Below are positions 2,477 through 32,810 of a stretch of DNA of 33,715 nt, piece after piece. The stretch spans positions 1-33,715 of the forward strand of contig JALWMP010000167.1 of NCBI GenBank assembly GCA_026996165.1, read 5' to 3'. Numbering within the stretch: position 1 is the first letter of the stretch; each line of letters starts with the position of its first letter. A program made the position numbers and the translations under genes. This DNA comes from Campylobacteraceae bacterium (lineage in GTDB: Bacteria > Campylobacterota > Campylobacteria > Campylobacterales > Sulfurovaceae). The notes below the pieces were generated by a model, which was given only the letters and a program-made list of their open reading frames with translations, did no database searches and was not told where the DNA came from.

Positions 2477-4060
2477 ATGCCCTACCCCCAAATAACCCCA
2501 CCCCAAATAGCCCAAAAACTCCAAAGACGCTTTAGCAAAGATGGTCATCTCTCTCTAGTCGATTTACCAAAACCATCAGAGTTTAAAGATATGGACAGAG
2601 CTACAGCTCGTATAGTAAAAGCAATTTACACAGGTGAAAAGATAGCTCTTATAGGTGACTATGATGTTGATGGAGTAGTAGCTACTACACTTATGGTTAT
2701 GTTTTTTGAGGCGATAGGTATAGAGTTAGATTGGATTATTCCTAACCGCTTTCGTGATGGGTATGGACTCTCTAGTAATCTTATTCCTAAAATTGAGGGT
2801 TATGACTTGGTATTTACCGTAGACAATGGTATTTCAGCTGTTGAGGCATCAAAAGAGTGTAAAAAACTTGGAATTGACCTAATTATTACTGACCATCATA
2901 TTGTTCCTACAAATATTCCAGAAGCTTATGCTATTGTTGACCAAAAGCAAGAGGAGTGTACTTTTCCATATGAGGAGGTATGTGGTGCTCAAATTGCATG
3001 GTACCTTATAGCGTCACTTAATAGGGCTTTAAAGGCAAAAATAGACCTAAAGGCATACCTAGGGTTGGTTAGCATAGCAATCATAGCAGATATGATGCCT
3101 CTGCACCATATTAATCGTGCTATGGTAAAGGCAGGTTTACAGATTTTAAATCGTTCGGAATTACCTGCTATTAAAGCTTTTAGGGAGCGTTTAGATAAAG
3201 AATTACTTAATGCCGAAGATATTGGTTTTCAGATTGCTCCTGTATTAAACTCCGCAGGACGAATGGATGATGCTAAGTGGTCAGTAGAATTTCTATTAAG
3301 TTCAAATATCTATGATGCAAGAGTTCGTTTAGAGCGTTTAGTAGAATTTAATGAAAATCGAAAAGCTATGGAGCAGAAGATTACAGATGAGGCAATACAA
3401 CAAGTAGATATAGACGATGAAATATTAGTAGTAGCAGGAGAAGATTGGCATGAGGGTGTTGTAGGTATTGTTGCTGCAAGAATTGGTCGACGTTTTGAAA
3501 AGCCTTGTATTGTTTTAACGAGAAGTGAGAATGGCGATTTTAAAGGGAGTGGGCGTAGTTTTCATGTTTGCAATCTTTTTAAAGTAACAAGTTTTTGTCG
3601 ACCTCTTCTTAAAAAGTTTGGAGGACATGAAGCAGCTATTGGACTTAGTTTAGAAGCCAAAAACCTAGCACAGTTTAGAGAAGAGTTACAACAACACTAT
3701 CAAGCTCAAAACTATCCTAAACAACTTATTGACCCAGATATATTAGGAGAGTTGAGTTTTTCAGATATTGGTTTTGAATTAGTAAACTTGCTTAAAAGTT
3801 TTGAGCCATATGGTCAAGGAAATCCACGTCCAAAGTTTATTAGTAGTAATGTTATTATAGAAGATGTAAACGATATGGGAAAAGCTAAAGAGCATAGACG
3901 TTTTACTTTTTCACAAAATGGAGTAATGCAACAGGCTGTACTTTTTAAGACTAAAGATATTTTTCATATAGGTCAGGTGGTCTCTGTAGTTTATGAAATA
4001 AATGAAAATCACTTTAACAATCGTGTAAATTTACAGCTTATGGTAGAGAAAATTTTTTAG
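2477..4060 (+). CDS. recJ: Single-stranded-DNA-specific 5'-3' exonuclease RecJ
   Basis: RecJ (527 aa) is a DHH-family exonuclease used in recombination and mismatch/base-excision repair. The metal-binding motifs appear in order: GDYDVDGVVATT, VDNGISA, ITDHHIVP (the DHH signature), IADMMPL, then in the DHHA1 domain GSGRSFHVCNLF and FGGHEAAIGLSL. A C-terminal OB-like segment follows. The length is slightly below that of the E. coli enzyme (577 aa). The ATG follows AAAGGA at 2465-2470. The gene lies downstream of pyrG across the REP-like repeat; from memory the pyrG-recJ pair is also found in Campylobacter and Helicobacter. Confidence 0.95.
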   Translation: MPYPQITPPQIAQKLQRRFSKDGHLSLVDLPKPSEFKDMDRATARIVKAIYTGEKIALIGDYDVDGVVATTLMVMFFEAIGIELDWIIPNRFRDGYGLSSNLIPKIEGYDLVFTVDNGISAVEASKECKKLGIDLIITDHHIVPTNIPEAYAIVDQKQEECTFPYEEVCGAQIAWYLIASLNRALKAKIDLKAYLGLVSIAIIADMMPLHHINRAMVKAGLQILNRSELPAIKAFRERLDKELLNAEDIGFQIAPVLNSAGRMDDAKWSVEFLLSSNIYDARVRLERLVEFNENRKAMEQKITDEAIQQVDIDDEILVVAGEDWHEGVVGIVAARIGRRFEKPCIVLTRSENGDFKGSGRSFHVCNLFKVTSFCRPLLKKFGGHEAAIGLSLEAKNLAQFREELQQHYQAQNYPKQLIDPDILGELSFSDIGFELVNLLKSFEPYGQGNPRPKFISSNVIIEDVNDMGKAKEHRRFTFSQNGVMQQAVLFKTKDIFHIGQVVSVVYEINENHFNNRVNLQLMVEKIF

Positions 4061-4089
4061 TTAAGAGGCAGATAATCTTTGATTTTCTA

Positions 4090-4118
4090 TTGACAATATT
4101 AAAAAAATAAAGTAGAAT
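4090..4118 (+). promoter_or_regulatory. Strong sigma-70-type promoter for the small ORF
   Basis: TTGACA at 4090-4095 and TAGAAT at 4113-4118 are separated by exactly 17 bases, so the predicted transcript start is near 4125. It lies just after recJ and before the small ORF at 4152, and gives that ORF its own transcript independent of recJ. Confidence 0.75.
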
Positions 4119-4151
4119 TTTTACTTAAAATATTTTTAATAAAGGAAAGTT

Positions 4152-4241
4152 ATGCTTCGAGAACTATTACGATTTTTATTTACTAAAAAACATCAAAATT
4201 TAAATAAAGTACGAATTACGGTTAAGTGTGTAGAGGATTAA
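4152..4241 (+). CDS. Predicted 29-aa basic small protein or leader peptide
   Basis: The ATG at 4152 is preceded by a strong ribosome site (AAAGGAAAG at 4141-4149) and opens a 29-codon frame ending TAA at 4241. The peptide begins MLRELLRFLFTKKHQ and ends KVRITVKCVED. It is basic and Leu-rich at the start, with no clear membrane segment. The unit has a consensus promoter 34 bases upstream and a terminator hairpin about 40 bases downstream, so an mRNA of roughly 180 nt is predicted. I recognise no family. It could be a small functional protein, a leader peptide acting on the hairpins that follow, or a chance ORF in a small RNA. The ribosome site favours translation. Confidence 0.5.
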   Translation: MLRELLRFLFTKKHQNLNKVRITVKCVED

Positions 4242-4260
4242 ATAAAAATCTTCTTATAAT

Positions 4261-4308
4261 TCTCTTCCAATGATTTGGAAGGAGAGTGAAGTTCACTCTC
4301 CATTTTTA
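4261..4308 (+). terminator. Tandem overlapping hairpins ending in an intrinsic terminator
   Basis: Hairpin 1 pairs TTCCAA (4265-4270) with TTGGAA (4275-4280) around a TGAT loop and can extend through TCTC with GAGA up to 4285. Hairpin 2 pairs GGAGAGTG (4281-4288) with CACTCTCC (4294-4301) and is followed by ATTTTTAAT, a standard Rho-independent terminator. The extended form of hairpin 1 uses bases 4281-4285, which also belong to hairpin 2, so the two may be alternatives. Confidence 0.75.
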
Positions 4309-4384
4309 ATAACCTGAGTTCTAAAATGGGAATGAATTGAAATATTTCTCTATACTTTAAATAAAACTCTCCTATAATTTCAAA

Positions 4385-4729
4385 ATGTACAATAAAAAAA
4401 AAGAACGCCTTTACATTTCTGAACTCTTAGAAGATGAACCTGCCATTTCATACCCCTCTTACTATGTCTTAAGTACCTCCATGATAAGAAATGAGATGTT
4501 GCATTACGCTTTGATTGCCCTACACTCTTTAGATTTGGAAAATTATGAACACCCTAGCTCTTATGAAGATATTTTTGCTATGTTTTCAGGAGGAATGTTT
4601 CCTATTTATAAAGAGATGTATGTAGTTGGGTATTTTGGTGGAAAGATGATGTATCTTGATAGCTCAGGTTGGAGAGCTATGTTATGTACTCAAGATGTGT
4701 TTAAAATGGAGAATTGGTTAGTCTGTTAG
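4385..4729 (+). CDS. Hypothetical protein, 114 aa
   Basis: I do not recognise this protein. It is a 114-aa frame starting MYNKKKERLYISELLEDEP and ending MENWLVC, acidic and Tyr/Met-rich, with no signal peptide or clear membrane segment. The middle (FSGGMFPIYKEMYVVGYFGG) is aromatic and Gly-rich and may form a small alpha/beta fold. No ribosome site precedes the ATG at 4385. A TATAAT at 4373-4378 lies so close that transcription could begin at the start codon and give a leaderless mRNA. An internal ATG at 4472 in the same frame is an alternative start. The gene stands alone between the small-ORF unit and dacB. Confidence 0.6.
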   Translation: MYNKKKERLYISELLEDEPAISYPSYYVLSTSMIRNEMLHYALIALHSLDLENYEHPSSYEDIFAMFSGGMFPIYKEMYVVGYFGGKMMYLDSSGWRAMLCTQDVFKMENWLVC

Positions 4730-4806
4730 AGAAAAGTTCTATTGTTTACTACGCTTTAACCCCTTTTAGATTATCATCATAAAAAAGATTTTTTAAGGTT
4801 ATGTAA

Positions 4807-6219
4807 ATGGGGTCAGTTAAAAAGATATTTTTTACTATTTTTATATTTATAAGCAGTAGTTTTGCTGTTACTATTCCTGATGATTTAGCACAAGAGATTT
4901 CTACTATTCCTATAGATAAACAGAACTATAGTATCTATATTCAGTCTGTAGACTCAAACTATCCTATTGCTTCATGGCAAACTTATGTAGTTCGTAAACC
5001 AGCTTCAGTTATTAAACTTTTGACTACCTACTCTGCTGTTTTAAATTTAGGCTTTGACTACCGTTGGGAGACTAAATTTTACTATACAGGAAAGATAAGA
5101 CAAGGTATTTTAAGAGGTGATTTATATGTAAAAGCATCAGGAGATTCTACTCTCTCTACAAAAGATTTAGATGATATAATTGCACAAGTTAGAGAAAAAG
5201 GTATTCATAAGATTCAGGGAAATATTGTTATTGACCGAACACTGTTTAAAGTATCTTCTCGAAATAATTCAGGGTTTGATAAAAATATATATAGTCCATA
5301 CAATGCTATGCCAGATGCAATTATGTTTAACAAACGAAAAAGTACCTTTTGTATTACTCCTGACTCTAAACGAGCTAAAATAGTAAAAGATGTACCAGAT
5401 GGAAGCTATACGATTGTCAATAAATTACGAATAGTAGGTGGTTCTTGTCGTAGAGGTCGTTCGTGGCCGAGGGTACATATTAAGACAGATTCTTCTTCTC
5501 GTTCAACAGTCTTTTTATCAGGAAAACTCTCTCGACATTGTGGTACAAGAAAAATCTGTAAGGTTATCTCAATGCCTCACCGAGCATTCTACTTTGCACT
5601 AAAAGAGAAGCTTTTAGATAATGGAATCAAAGTAACAGGGACATTGAAGTTAAAAAAAGTACCTATAGGTGCAAAATATCTCTTTTCTCACTACTCTGAA
5701 CCACTAGAGAGTGTTATCTCTACTATTGCTAAAAGGTCTGACAACTTAATGGCTAGACAACTCTTTTTGACACTAGGAGCAACTTGTTTTGCTCCTCCAA
5801 GTACACTTTATAAAAGTAGAAAAGCTGTAGAAAAAACACTTAAAAAGTATCATATTTTAGAAGGTACTACACATATAGAGAATGGTTCAGGACTCTCACG
5901 TTCTGCACGAGTAACAGCTAAAACTTTAGCAAATCTTTTAAATCATGCCTATAAAAACTATGGACAACGTTGGATGAATACACTCTCTATTGCAGGGATT
6001 GATGGAACGATTCATAACCGTTTTAAATACTCAACTGTTTTTGGTAGAGCATGGATGAAAACAGGAACAATTAAAGGAGTCAAAAATATTGCTGGATATG
6101 TTGAGGGAGTCTCTGGACAACGTTATGTTGTTGTTATTCTTGTTAACGATAGACTAGCTCACTCCTACGGTTATAAACTGGCCAATAGAGTTATTGAATG
6201 GGTAGCAAATACACAATGA
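4807..6219 (+). CDS. dacB: D-alanyl-D-alanine carboxypeptidase/endopeptidase (PBP4 type)
   Basis: This 470-aa periplasmic peptidoglycan hydrolase of the S13 (PBP4/DacB) family removes terminal D-Ala from stem peptides or cuts cross-links. A signal peptide is clear: MGSVKK, then a hydrophobic stretch to SSSFA, with cleavage expected after residue 20. The penicillin-binding motifs are S67-V-I-K70 (SxxK), S311-D-N313 (SxN) and K418-T-G (KTG). The long insert between SxxK and SxN is typical of the family. The next gene, mobA, overlaps the stop codon (ATGA), so the two are probably co-transcribed although their functions are unrelated. Confidence 0.93.
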   Translation: MGSVKKIFFTIFIFISSSFAVTIPDDLAQEISTIPIDKQNYSIYIQSVDSNYPIASWQTYVVRKPASVIKLLTTYSAVLNLGFDYRWETKFYYTGKIRQGILRGDLYVKASGDSTLSTKDLDDIIAQVREKGIHKIQGNIVIDRTLFKVSSRNNSGFDKNIYSPYNAMPDAIMFNKRKSTFCITPDSKRAKIVKDVPDGSYTIVNKLRIVGGSCRRGRSWPRVHIKTDSSSRSTVFLSGKLSRHCGTRKICKVISMPHRAFYFALKEKLLDNGIKVTGTLKLKKVPIGAKYLFSHYSEPLESVISTIAKRSDNLMARQLFLTLGATCFAPPSTLYKSRKAVEKTLKKYHILEGTTHIENGSGLSRSARVTAKTLANLLNHAYKNYGQRWMNTLSIAGIDGTIHNRFKYSTVFGRAWMKTGTIKGVKNIAGYVEGVSGQRYVVVILVNDRLAHSYGYKLANRVIEWVANTQ

Positions 6220-27862: not shown

Positions 27863-30800
27863 ATGATTAGAATTGTAAAGCGAAGTGGTCGAATTGAGAC
27901 ATTGGATATTACTAAAATTCAAAAAAATACTTCAGCATCTGTAAAGGGATTAGATGGTGTAAATCAGAGTGAACTAGAGGTTGACGCAAATTTACAATTT
28001 CAAGATATGATGAGTTCTGCTGATATTCAACAGACACTTATTAAAACAGCCGTTGATAAAATTGACATAGACCGACCAAACTGGACTTTTGTTGCAGCAA
28101 GACTCTTTTTATATGACCTCTATCATAAGGTAGGGCGTAATGTTGGTGGTGTAAAGGGTGAACCTTATGCTCATCTAAGAAAATATTTTGAACATGGTGA
28201 GAGAGAAGGACGTATTTTATTAGGGTTAAAAGAGAAGTATGACTTAGATGACCTAAACGATTATATTAAACCTGAACGAGATTTACAATTTAACTACCTT
28301 GGTATTAGAACACTTTATGACCGTTACTTACTAAAAGACAAAGATGGTAAACCTATAGAGCTTCCTCAACAACTCTTTATGGGGGTTGCTATGTTCTTAG
28401 CTCAAAATGAGTTTGATTGTCAAACATGGGCGAAGAAGTTTTACGACATCTTGTCAAAATTTGAAGTAATGGCCGCTACACCAACCTTGTCAAATGCACG
28501 AACACCTAGACATCAGTTGTCATCATGTTACATTGGGTCAAGCCCTGACAATATTGAAGGTATCTTTGATGGCTATAAAGAGATGGCTCTGTTGTCAAAA
28601 TTTGGTGGTGGAATTGGTTGGGACTGGTCACAAGTTCGTGGAATGGGGTCTTACATCGACGGTCACAAACATGCAGCAGGTGGAGTTGTGCCATTTTTAA
28701 AGATTGCCAATGATGTTGCCATTGCAGTTGACCAACTTGGTTGTGTTGCTAAAAATAGTTTTGTTCGAGTTTTAAAAAGTGTAACAACTGATAAGTTTGT
28801 ACATGATTTTAGAAGAGAGTATAAAGAACACTCTTTAAATAAAGATGAGGTGCTAGATATTATTTCTCTTCATGTAAAAAACTTTACCTTTAAATATGGT
28901 AGATTGAGTGAAGATGATATTTATGATTTATTAAAAGATTATATTTCAGGTTTTTCTCTTTTAGAAATTTGTAATAAATTTGATTTGTCTCGAGACCAAT
29001 ATAAAAAAATTATTGGTAAATACAAAAAGATGAATAAAGGTCTACCAGAAGGTTTTCAAATTATTAAAGATGAAAACTATGCTATTCATAAAAGTGGAGT
29101 AGTTATTAATTTGACTTCACTAAAAACATTATCTACAACCATAGATAGAAAGGGTTATGTGCGTGTGGCTTTGGGTAAAAAATCAATACCTCTACATAAA
29201 CTATTAGTAGAAACCTTTTTTGATTTACCAAAAGATGAAAAAATTACAATAGACCATATTGACAATAATAAGCTAAATAACTCACTTGATAACTTTGAAA
29301 TTTTATCGAATGAAAATAATATCTCAAAAGGTTGGATAGAGACAAAAGAGAAAAGAGTTGAGATGTCAAGAATTAGAAAACATCTCTCTCATAATTTTAG
29401 ATTAAAAGGAGATAGACGAAATACAGAAGAGATAAACATTTTGGATATAGAAGTAGAAACTATCCCAATTTCAAAAGTACGAATAGGAGACTTAGTAGAA
29501 AGCTTTAATATCGAATTAGATAAAGTTCAATATAAAAAGGTTCAGGCTGTTCATGAACTTGAAGTCAAAAAAGAGAATCAAATAAAAATCTCATTTAAAG
29601 ATGGGTATATTATTACTTCCAAATGGCATCCAATGGCAATAAAAGGTTCTAATGGGTACTACTATAAAAGAAGTGATGAAGTAAAAGTAGGAGAGTATGG
29701 AGTTAATCATAAAGGCGAAGAGGATAAGATATTATCCATCGATACAAATCCTAATATTTCAGAAGAGTATATGGACTTAACAGTAGAAGGGACAAATAAC
29801 TACTTTGCTTCTACAGATAAATTTAATAATTTTTATTTAACTCACAATACACGTAAAGGAGCTATAGCTGTCTATCTTGAACCTTGGCATATTGATGTGC
29901 GAGATTTCCTTGACCTAAAGAAAAACTCTGGTGAAGAGAGAAGAAGAGCTCATGACCTCTTCCCTGCTCTATGGCTAAATGACCTCTTTATGAAGCGAGT
30001 TCAAGAAGATGAGCGATGGACACTCTTTGACCCTTATGAGGTTCGTGAGTTAACTGACCTATATGGTGAAGAGTTTGAAAAACGTTACATAGAGCTTGAA
30101 GAGGGAGATGATGATATTACACGAGAGGTTGTCTCTGCTAAAGCTTTATGGAAAGAGGTTTTACGCTCCTACTTTGAGACAGGAAATCCATTTTTAACTT
30201 TTAAAGATACAGCAAATAGAGCAAATCCAAATAAGCATAGTGGATTAATTAGAAGTAGTAATTTATGCACAGAAATAATGCAGAACACAGCCCCAAATCA
30301 CTACAAAATTAGATTGACATTTACAGATGGTTCAGTTGCACTCTATGAAGAGGAAGAGCCAATAACCGTTGACAGTGGCATGACAAAACCTGCTAAAAAA
30401 GTGACAGCACTTGACAGCATAAATGGTAAACAGATTTGGATGGCAGACAAAGAGTTGAGCGATGGTGATACAGCTGTTTGTAACCTTGCATCAGTAAATC
30501 TTTCAAAGATTAATACTAAAGAGGATATTGCAAGAGTTGTACCAATAGCCATTAGAATGCTTGACAATGTAATCGACCTTAACTTTTATCCTTTAGCAAA
30601 AGTTAAAAAGACAAACCAAAAGACAAGAGCTATTGGTTTAGGTGTTATGGGTGAAGCTCAAATGTTAGCAGAAGCCAAAATTGAGTGGGGTTCAAATGAA
30701 CATCTATTGAAAGTAGATGAAGTAATGGAATCTGTCTCTTATTATGCTATTAAGTCATCTAGTGACCTTGCTATAGAGAAAGGAAAATATCCAATTTTTG

Positions 30801-31357
30801 AGGGGTCAGACTGGTCAAAGGGTATTTTCCCTATTGACAATGCAAATAAAGAAGCATGCAAATTAGTTGAACGAGGTGGACTTTTTGGTTATACTCATGA
30901 CTGGATAAAGCTAAAAGAAAAAGTAAAAAAAGATGGTATGCGTAATGGTTATCTTATGGCAGTTGCACCTACTTCTTCAATCTCTATACTAACAGGAACA
31001 ACACAAGCGATTGAACCAGTTTATAAACGTAAATGGTTTGAAGAGAATCTATCTGGACTTATTCCTGTTTGTGCTCCTAAGTTATCACCTGAGACTTGGC
31101 TCTACTATACTCCTGCTTATGACCTTGACCAAAATATCTTAGTTAAAGCAGGTGCTATTAGACAAAAATGGATAGACCAAGGGCAGTCACTTAACATATT
31201 TATTACACTTGACAAAGCAAGTGGTAGATACTTAAATGAGATTTACATGAATGCTTGGAAGTTTGGTCTAAAGTCAACCTATTACCTTAGAAGTCAATCT
31301 CCTGAGTCAACGAATGATATTGAAGATAGAAGTATGGAGTGTGTTGGGTGTCAATAG
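27863..31357 (+). CDS. nrdA: Ribonucleoside-diphosphate reductase alpha subunit, interrupted by an intein
   Basis: The 1164-aa precursor becomes a class I reductase large subunit of 795 aa once the intein (residues 294-662) is removed. The enzyme makes dNDPs from NDPs. The N-terminus is an ATP-cone (IVKRSGRIETLDITKIQ). The catalytic barrel includes LSSCYIGSSPDNIEG (Cys222), NLCTEI, CNLASVNLS and the late VAPTSSISILTGTTQAIEP. The C-terminal redox pair is CVGCQ. Removal of the intein rejoins DQLG with TRKGAIAVYLEPWH, a conserved substrate-site stretch, so splicing is probably essential. AAAGGA precedes the ATG. nrdB is not in the window. From memory, purB-nrdA adjacency is shared with Campylobacter. 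Confidence 0.96.
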   Translation: MIRIVKRSGRIETLDITKIQKNTSASVKGLDGVNQSELEVDANLQFQDMMSSADIQQTLIKTAVDKIDIDRPNWTFVAARLFLYDLYHKVGRNVGGVKGEPYAHLRKYFEHGEREGRILLGLKEKYDLDDLNDYIKPERDLQFNYLGIRTLYDRYLLKDKDGKPIELPQQLFMGVAMFLAQNEFDCQTWAKKFYDILSKFEVMAATPTLSNARTPRHQLSSCYIGSSPDNIEGIFDGYKEMALLSKFGGGIGWDWSQVRGMGSYIDGHKHAAGGVVPFLKIANDVAIAVDQLGCVAKNSFVRVLKSVTTDKFVHDFRREYKEHSLNKDEVLDIISLHVKNFTFKYGRLSEDDIYDLLKDYISGFSLLEICNKFDLSRDQYKKIIGKYKKMNKGLPEGFQIIKDENYAIHKSGVVINLTSLKTLSTTIDRKGYVRVALGKKSIPLHKLLVETFFDLPKDEKITIDHIDNNKLNNSLDNFEILSNENNISKGWIETKEKRVEMSRIRKHLSHNFRLKGDRRNTEEINILDIEVETIPISKVRIGDLVESFNIELDKVQYKKVQAVHELEVKKENQIKISFKDGYIITSKWHPMAIKGSNGYYYKRSDEVKVGEYGVNHKGEEDKILSIDTNPNISEEYMDLTVEGTNNYFASTDKFNNFYLTHNTRKGAIAVYLEPWHIDVRDFLDLKKNSGEERRRAHDLFPALWLNDLFMKRVQEDERWTLFDPYEVRELTDLYGEEFEKRYIELEEGDDDITREVVSAKALWKEVLRSYFETGNPFLTFKDTANRANPNKHSGLIRSSNLCTEIMQNTAPNHYKIRLTFTDGSVALYEEEEPITVDSGMTKPAKKVTALDSINGKQIWMADKELSDGDTAVCNLASVNLSKINTKEDIARVVPIAIRMLDNVIDLNFYPLAKVKKTNQKTRAIGLGVMGEAQMLAEAKIEWGSNEHLLKVDEVMESVSYYAIKSSSDLAIEKGKYPIFEGSDWSKGIFPIDNANKEACKLVERGGLFGYTHDWIKLKEKVKKDGMRNGYLMAVAPTSSISILTGTTQAIEPVYKRKWFEENLSGLIPVCAPKLSPETWLYYTPAYDLDQNILVKAGAIRQKWIDQGQSLNIFITLDKASGRYLNEIYMNAWKFGLKSTYYLRSQSPESTNDIEDRSMECVGCQ
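28742..29848 (+). other. Intein in NrdA with HNH homing endonuclease
   Basis: An in-frame 369-residue insert lies between LG and TRKGAIAVYLEP. It begins with Cys1 (CVAKNSFVRV, block A) and ends LTHN (block G), with Thr as the +1 residue, the marks of a self-splicing class 1 intein. Block N2 is VRIGDLVESFN (246-256), block B is IITSKWHPM with His296, and block F is EYMDLTVEGTNNYFAS (342-357). Residues about 14-228 hold a helix-turn-helix-like part (LLEICNKFDLSRDQYKKI), a NUMOD4-like strand region (KGYVRVALG) and an HNH_3 nuclease motif: His152 in PLHKLLVETFF, Asp171-His172 in ITIDHIDNNKLNN and Asn184. No LAGLIDADG motif is present. All splice residues and the nuclease residues look intact, so the element may still be mobile. 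Confidence 0.93.
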
Positions 31358-31586: not shown

Positions 31587-32810
31587 CTACTTCTCATAAA
31601 TTTTTACAAAATGTTTACCTAGTTTAAGTAAGGTCTCTGTTTTTTCATTTGATAGTAGTGTTAATTTAATAGTATTTTTATCTATAAATTCAATATCATA
31701 ATTTGAAGGGTAACCAAGACTACCAAGTAAATCCTCTTTTGAAGTCGGAGGAAAGTATAAGATGCAAGACTCTCCTTTATTTAATGAAAAACTATTATTG
31801 TTTTGAGTTACATGATAAAGAGGTATATTAAATCTTCTAGTTTGAAAGCTCCATTTCTTTTCAATAAGTTTTTTATCGACAATAGCTTTAAATTTTACAT
31901 AATAGTATTGATTCCATGCTAATCTTTTTAGAGGAAAAAGAACAAAATCCATTTTGGTTAAACGTCTATTTGGGTCAGTTTTAGCATCTAATATGGTTGT
32001 GTTGGTTATCTCAATACCATCTTTATCAAATAGTTGAAAACTTAGTAGTTTAACATTTTTATAGATAGCAGAGTTAAAAGATACACTAACAGGATATCCA
32101 CTTACTTTATGGTTTGGTAAAGGGTCTGGTAGTTCATCAAAAAAGGCAGGAGGAACATCTCTCTGTTTGTCGTAAGGGTAGATAACCATTTTATGATTTT
32201 TATTTTTATTACTTTCAATAGCTCTTGTTAGTTGTTTTTGAGTAATAGTATCTTGTTTATATAGTTTTTCTAATGCTTTTGCACTCATATCATAAACAAA
32301 GGCTGTATTGCTTGGGTGAGTTTGGCTTTGACTTACTCCTATGCCAATAATATCTGAACGAAAATCTAAAAATGCCATACGATGGTAAATTGCAGCAAAG
32401 AGACCATCTACTGACTCTTTATAGTTTTTATTGTTTGCAGAGACATTCTCTATGACTTGTGGAGCAGAAAAACCAACCTCTTGAATACGCTCAGAGGCGT
32501 AAATTCCAGTGAAATCTTTAAAATTTTTATCTTCTTTGTGACCATATATTAGATGATTAGTAAGATAGTTAGCATGATTTTTAGCTGCTTTTTTTAAAAT
32601 ATTGTGGGACTTAAATGGAATAAGCCCCACTTTAGTACGAAATTGATTAAGATAATTAAGTGCTTTGTTCTCTTCTTGTTCTATATTTAAAGGGGAAAAC
32701 TCTTTGACTATAATATGTGATGAAGGTAGAGGTTCTGCCGATAAGAAATAGAGATATATAGCAAATAGAGTAAGTATACCCATTATAAAAGTGTGTAAAA
32801 TATTTTTCAT
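31587..32810 (-). CDS. CAP/SCP-domain secreted or membrane-anchored protein
   Basis: This 407-aa protein has an N-terminal hydrophobic segment (about 7-25) that serves as signal peptide or anchor, then a CAP (CRISP/PR-1/SCP) domain at about 50-170. CAP features are KALNYLNQFRTKVGLIPF, KKAAKNHANYLT, GHKED and the later AIYHRMAFLDFRSDIIGIGV (HR motif). The rest (about 200-407) is beta-rich, with a segment like a bacterial Ig-type domain (YPVSVSFNSA ... YYVKFKAIVD), and ends with an unrecognised tail. Bacterial CAP proteins are extracytoplasmic and of mostly unknown activity. AAGGAAGAG precedes the ATG. It is transcribed divergently from the TetR gene. Confidence 0.85.
   Translation of the reverse strand: MKNILHTFIMGILTLFAIYLYFLSAEPLPSSHIIVKEFSPLNIEQEENKALNYLNQFRTKVGLIPFKSHNILKKAAKNHANYLTNHLIYGHKEDKNFKDFTGIYASERIQEVGFSAPQVIENVSANNKNYKESVDGLFAAIYHRMAFLDFRSDIIGIGVSQSQTHPSNTAFVYDMSAKALEKLYKQDTITQKQLTRAIESNKNKNHKMVIYPYDKQRDVPPAFFDELPDPLPNHKVSGYPVSVSFNSAIYKNVKLLSFQLFDKDGIEITNTTILDAKTDPNRRLTKMDFVLFPLKRLAWNQYYYVKFKAIVDKKLIEKKWSFQTRRFNIPLYHVTQNNNSFSLNKGESCILYFPPTSKEDLLGSLGYPSNYDIEFIDKNTIKLTLLSNEKTETLLKLGKHFVKIYEK

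Follow-up and report, generated by a model that had tools for sequence, protein, structure and literature searches.

An NrdA intein of Campylobacterales with an HNH homing endonuclease predicted between block A and block N2

We analyzed a DNA stretch of 33,715 nucleotides (hereafter the window; contig JALWMP010000167.1 of assembly GCA_026996165.1, a Campylobacteraceae bacterium of the Sulfurovaceae) in which nrdA, the gene for the alpha subunit of class Ia ribonucleotide reductase, is interrupted by an intein. A segment resembling an HNH homing endonuclease lies in this intein between block A, the first splicing strand, and block N2. With a probability that we put at about 0.85, the full explanation is a mobile class 1 intein whose homing endonuclease (HEN) is looped out at the S1 hairpin of its Hint domain, and not at the site between blocks N4 and F.

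The intein, its block order and its alleles

The nrdA open reading frame (ORF; 27863..31357, + strand, like all parts of the gene given below) encodes 1164 amino acids (aa) and matches NF006279 with 1501 bits. The intein occupies 28742..29848, a stop-free run of 369 aa within this single ORF (codons 294-662, insertion site b, G^C...HN^T), so that 795 aa of NrdA are left without it (1164-369). It lies between DQLG and TRKG and separates an N-extein of 293 aa ending in ...AIAVDQLG (27863..28741) from a C-extein of 502 aa (29849..31354) which begins with Thr+1 (TRKGAIAVYLEPWH...). The ends are those of a class 1 intein, i.e. Cys1, a terminal His-Asn, then Thr+1.

Block A reads CVAKNSFVRVLK (residues 1-12, 28742..28777) and starts with the nucleophile Cys1. 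It is followed by an inserted segment, residues 13-237 (28778..29452), made of linkers and endonuclease and missing from mini-inteins at the same site. This segment comprises a helical N-terminal module with a weakly matched helix-turn-helix (HTH)-like part (residues 34-98, 28841..29035; HTH_28 E 0.025), a NUMOD4-like region (residues 105-145, 29054..29176; weak Pfam match and I-HmuI alignment), an HNH nuclease core with H152, D171, H172, N184 and N193 (residues 147-200, 29180..29341) and a flexible linker (residues 217-228, 29390..29425). Blocks N2, B, N4 and F are all found in the remainder of the Hint splicing domain, residues 238-369 (29453..29848): N2 is VRIGDLVESFN (residues 246-256, 29477..29509), B is ..IITSKWHP (29597..29632; T292, S293, H296), and F and G run from EYMDLTVEGTNNYF to ...FYLTHN (29765..29848), D345 being the block F residue. 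Block B has the form T-S-x-W-H, with Ser three before His, versus T-x-x-H in class 1; PI-PfuI is alike (TSPWHP). The canonical N4-to-F (C35/S0) site contains a short loop only (residues 322-328, 29705..29725) and no endonuclease. The intein is a contiguous polypeptide and not the two polypeptides of an S1 split intein.

Part of this had been proposed in an earlier reading of the letters without database searches (the sequence-only reading). The translation places Cys1, block B (T292-S-K-W-H296-P), N2, LTHN369, Thr+1 and the HNH residues H152, D171-H172 and N184 where that reading had put them. Its figure of about 215 residues between blocks A and N2 is correct; compared with mini-inteins, the extra segment runs from residue 13 to about 237 (about 225 aa). 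Its central claim, an HNH domain between A and N2 with a complete Hint domain as the remainder, also stands: the block order is real and recurs in relatives, none of which has block B in its first 100 residues or HNH between B and F. The place of insertion, described there as close to where atypical split inteins are cut, corresponds to split site S1.

Genome searches revealed the A-HNH-N2 order at the same codon boundary in at least 11 complete inteins from independent assemblies. They are distributed as follows: the window, G015, G017, G108, G056, G109 and G137 (family f1); G080 (f21), G320 (f15) and G248 (f23), from three other families of Campylobacterales; and the IMG/VR contig L202. The relatives' genomes are metagenome-assembled, and two further inteins which end at contig ends (G027 and G029) are not counted among the complete copies. 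Identity to the window intein reaches 90% in G015 and 86% in G017. As this order is repeated at the same splice site in independent assemblies, it is due neither to chance nor to assembly error. Cys1, the block B His (H296), the terminal H368-N369 and Thr+1 are invariant across all complete relatives, and nearly all HNH residues are conserved over the 11 inteins.

Inteins without HEN are present at the same site in G006 (148 aa), G018 (149 aa) and G097 (174 aa), aligning over their full length with the Hint part alone. Block A is joined directly to N2 in G006 and G018 (CVAKNSFVRVLDNDNTKVVAISDVKEGDLV), and this comparison gives the limits of the insert. The loop of G097 (intein residues 10-40, SDNYTHRLNGDRRG) looks like the two ends of the insert joined, SDNYTH to RLNGDRRG, and is either a deletion scar or a pre-invasion loop. 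A phage contig (L201) also carries a mini-intein of 147 aa at this site. Empty alleles are the rule: a 90-aa query of the joined exteins matched 157 of 175 family genomes, of which 144 are uninterrupted, the host sequence being contiguous as for a class 1 intein, 11 have an intein and 2 are cut by contig ends. A phylum-wide search of 397 genomes with the Hint part gave no additional intein of the same family. Hint matches in G181 and G030 are other Hint-containing proteins or inteins with no insert between A and N2, and that in G302 looks like chance. The intein of phage IBB_35, considered as an allele of site b, appears by eye to lie 3 residues downstream, so it is a neighbour.

NrdA of the relatives carries up to three inteins, at sites a, b and c (L158 in G109, L055 in G018, L052, L053 and L054); G109 has a 1988-aa ORF with inteins at all three. 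By eye, those at a and c resemble ordinary inteins whose LAGLIDADG-like motifs follow block B. In the window, nrdA is adjoined by a gene for a CAP-domain (SCP-like) protein (31587-32810, - strand), and upstream of it are genes for adenylosuccinate lyase, an RNA pseudouridine synthase and an RlmN-like radical SAM protein.

Domain identification and predicted fold

Four full-length relatives were scanned with Pfam: the PT-HINT cut-off was passed by all four (up to 41.1 bits) and that of HNH_3 by three (up to 35.1), and NUMOD4 matches were weak throughout (E 0.06-0.08). A profile of 8 sequences matched I-HmuI (1u3e) over residues 113-197 with E 8.4e-9, as well as PI-PfuI (245-322) and a BIL2 intein-like domain (240-357). 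N193 is conserved too and fits a metal-ligand position of I-HmuI. By sequence alone, a mini-intein had no significant match in the PDB.

An AlphaFold model was built from a 31-row alignment, an earlier 8-row model (predicted local distance difference test, pLDDT, 58.7) being too weak in the HNH half. Mean pLDDT is 83.4, with 92 for residues 1-10, 84-96 for the Hint blocks, 74-92 for most HNH blocks and less than 50 for the linker at residues 217-228. Helices of the N-terminal module are modelled at 34-48, 57-68, 73-80 and 84-96. Both ends of the insert are modelled as strand (7-16 and 233-242), as expected for a hairpin with a replaced turn. With this model Foldseek retrieved 2lwy (TMt 0.77), gp41-1 (0.74), VidaL (0.65), and BIL and DnaB inteins, which indicates a predicted Hint fold with TMt up to 0.77 to intein and BIL structures, in alignments that may span residues 233-369 only. 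I-HmuI was retrieved with E 2.6e-5. Folding the 369 residues, a check put forward in the sequence-only reading, is consistent with a Hint fold and an I-HmuI-like fold in one protein. The model was also aligned with two BFVD entries, A0A8S5V9W7 (a viral large terminase, 329 columns) and A0A1V0SJJ7 (a Klosneuvirus DNA polymerase, 556 columns), which are possibly further inteins with unusual block spacing.

The mechanism we propose is the following. The endonuclease, composed of the helical/HTH module, NUMOD4 and HNH, would be looped out between the first two Hint strands, i.e. at S1. In the model, strands 7-16 (block A) and 233-242 probably pair at the base of this loop, and such pairing would make the Hint domain complete, residues 1-12 and 238-369 folding into a working domain that splices NrdA. 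Excision through the chemistry of Cys1, the block B His, Asn369 and Thr+1 would yield the 795-aa NrdA. The excised protein or the precursor would cut intein-free nrdA at the DQLG^TRKG codons, which are conserved, and the intein would be copied in when the cut allele is repaired. By analogy, it is plausible that the turn of the S1 hairpin tolerates a large insert, because engineered inteins remain functional with a cut after 11-12 residues (N-inteins of 11-12 aa, Ssp DnaB S1; PMC3620165) and natural splits are located there (VidaL and PolB16; PMC13014065).

Mobility, history and alternative explanations

Synonymous divergence (dS) between the window and G015/G017 is 0.39/0.41 in HEN, 0.81/0.75 in Hint and 1.20/1.36 in the next 124 nrdA codons, the extein values being computed on the alignment. 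The lower divergence of the intein compared with the extein means that its common ancestor is more recent than that of the surrounding gene, and points to lateral movement of the intein. There is also a tree conflict, with modest support: G109 joins G056 in the intein tree and G108 in the extein tree.

These data bear on whether the endonuclease might be inactive, a relic or a structural insert in a mostly vertical intein. This reading would agree with the dropping of HEN by three same-site relatives and with the HNH_3 match of the window copy, the weakest among those scanned. However, H152, D171, H172, N184 and N193 are kept in copies about 50% identical and in free-standing phage HNH ORFs (one exception being L202, which has N-H in place of D-H), the ratio of nonsynonymous to synonymous divergence (dN/dS) of HEN within lineages is 0.11-0.26, and the lower dS of the intein together with the tree conflict implies recent lateral movement. 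We consider a relic unlikely. An equally doubtful alternative takes the mini-intein as the resident form and HNH as a mobile cassette of its own that entered S1 several times. The lower dS of HEN than of Hint between the window and G015/G017 looks as if HEN had moved or been converted alone, and the phage relatives L201, IBB_35, Thanatos-1 and VPALA are all mini-inteins; on the other hand, the Hint and HEN trees have the same main groups, the mini form of G006 is nested among HEN-bearing copies, that of G097 is sister to HEN-bearing G248, and G097 seems to retain both ends of the insert. Concordant trees with mini forms beside HEN-bearing copies are most simply explained by a single old acquisition with two or more later losses: the endonuclease would have been acquired before the Campylobacterales copies diverged, and its losses would have left the mini-inteins. 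It is very improbable that block A has been misassigned, the intein being smaller or elsewhere and HNH an ordinary insertion in NrdA or located between B and F. The first 12 residues are indeed too short for a significant family match, but mini-inteins at the same site (G^C) start with CVAKNSFV too, joined directly to N2, and deletion of exactly 28742-29848 gives a sequence contiguous with the 144 intein-free NrdAs.

Several points weigh against a mobile intein with its endonuclease at S1. The window copy is under the curated Pfam cut-offs for every domain (Intein_splicing 4.6e-4, PT-HINT 9.8e-4, HNH_3 5.1e-4, NUMOD4 0.078). The geometry between domains is unsure in the model, the predicted TM score (pTM) of 0.56 meaning that the relative placement of Hint and HNH is not trustworthy, and the pairing of block A with strand 233-242 is a probable one. 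The block order and its conservation, the mini and empty alleles, the lateral signal and the predicted fold are observations; splicing, DNA cleavage, homing and entry as a free-standing HNH gene are steps that we infer. The N2 region of G006 diverges from its neighbours more than its remainder does, so HEN may have been lost there via recombination, and some doubt attaches to the order of gain and loss.

Putative endonuclease genes at the same place in viruses and comparison with known systems

The sequence-only reading had suggested that a free-standing HNH endonuclease invaded the loop. About 130 free-standing phage HNH ORFs match the HEN profile at residues ~105-205; these and I-HmuI favor entry as a free-standing HNH gene but do not point to a direct ancestor. 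When HNH-Hint fusions were sought among the viral HNH loci, none of the ~130 ORFs had a Hint domain. PHROG 59 was considered as a phage intein with HNH at S1, its match spanning 78-326 (apparently HNH and Hint), yet it does not match the Hint part alone. The search of phages at the DNA level gave a single HNH match of 60 bp. Free-standing NUMOD4-HNH-like ORFs of 179-208 aa are present in the same genus (L011/L142 in G019, L012-L014 in G008), one of them interrupted by two stop codons in its extended match; the intein endonuclease may have been drawn from such ORFs.

A search with the Hint part brought up two viral loci where other endonuclease genes lie between intein halves. In Acinetobacter phage KARL-1 (L204, NC_049441.1 38720-47121, 2234-5953) nrdA is present as three ORFs. 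NrdA-N ends in CLTPDTKVEILV-stop, a 12-aa N-intein; the middle ORF of 299 aa matches PHROG homing-endonuclease families and a "SEG-like homing endonuclease"; NrdA-C starts with MQTKVIEIKDIKVGDMIKS, which is block N2, and contains a C-intein of 130 aa. Phage Konradin has a whole nrdA, and comparison with it (98.3-99.0% identity in the flanks) shows an insertion of exactly 1,308 bp, located between Ser and Cys and made up of the N-intein, the stop, the endonuclease gene and the C-intein. Shewanella phage Thanatos-1 carries the version without interruption (CLTPNTLVWTLVDGKEKETQIQYIKVGDK). In the second locus, L196 (IMGVR_UViG_3300043411_000968, 3000-6146), NrdA ends, at another site, in an N-terminal intein part (IntN) of 46 aa. 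The ORF between the halves has a GIY-YIG-like start (YFIYEIKD...YIGSHHG) with weak homing-endonuclease family support, and the C-terminal part (IntC) is 39% identical to the Hint domain of the Campylobacterales NrdA intein family. An ordinary LAGLIDADG-like intein is located upstream in the same gene.

On their sequences, both loci are read as split inteins of an S1-like kind, the gap being filled by an endonuclease gene, and KARL-1 is a candidate for a natural S1-split intein whose N-part has 12 residues. An invader keeping its own start and stop would produce just this, a naturally split intein whose N-part is very short. These loci strengthen the proposal of the sequence-only reading that this could be another route to mobile inteins. 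The NrdA intein lineage looks like it has received at least three entries: HNH fused in frame in Campylobacterales, a SEG-like gene that brings its own start and stop in KARL-1, and a GIY-YIG-like gene in L196. We lean slightly towards the S1 hairpin of Hint being a second general landing site for homing endonucleases, from which natural S1-split inteins may descend, a claim based on three cases that are all NrdA inteins of one Hint lineage.

All intein endonucleases are described at one conserved site (C35/S0), although other sites would be expected if entry were random (PMC6801210, 2019), and the reason for this is raised there as a question; Beyer et al. (PMC6801210) proposed a steric clash with the host protein for the absence of other sites, and the single-site picture is repeated in PMC8966425 and PMC13014065. 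No intein endonuclease located between A and N2 is reported in the literature searched, which lacked most subscription papers and the intein database. The NrdA intein family offers a case of an endonuclease off the conserved site, with matched alleles that have HEN, lack HEN or are empty. These make the clash question directly testable: does a loop at S1 avoid the clash, and do forms with and without HEN splice equally? The family may also explain how natural S1-split inteins, which serve as protein-labelling tools, arose.

Full-length class 1 inteins with a nested LAGLIDADG or HNH endonuclease (e.g. PI-PfuI, PI-SceI) share with the window intein the Hint chemistry residues and fold, the nesting of an endonuclease, intein-free alleles and lateral movement; their endonuclease is at C35/S0 (PMC6801210, PMC8966425, PMC13014065), whereas that of the window would sit in the S1 hairpin. 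S1 split inteins (VidaL, PolB16, Ssp DnaB S1) have their break where the window has its insertion, after the first strand, but the window intein is uninterrupted and its endonuclease fused in frame. I-HmuI and the NUMOD4-HNH phage endonucleases resemble the insert in NUMOD4-HNH sequence and predicted fold; unlike I-HmuI, the window HNH is inside an intein and is accompanied by an extra N-terminal helical/HTH-like module. Published cases of fractured genes reportedly break at the canonical split site. As far as the account in PMC11766414 of Dassa et al. (2009) goes, such genes consist of a split intein with an endonuclease gene between its halves. KARL-1 and L196 share this logic of IntN, endonuclease gene and IntC, but their break comes after block A, with an IntN of 12 or ~46 aa, and the window intein has an in-frame fusion instead.
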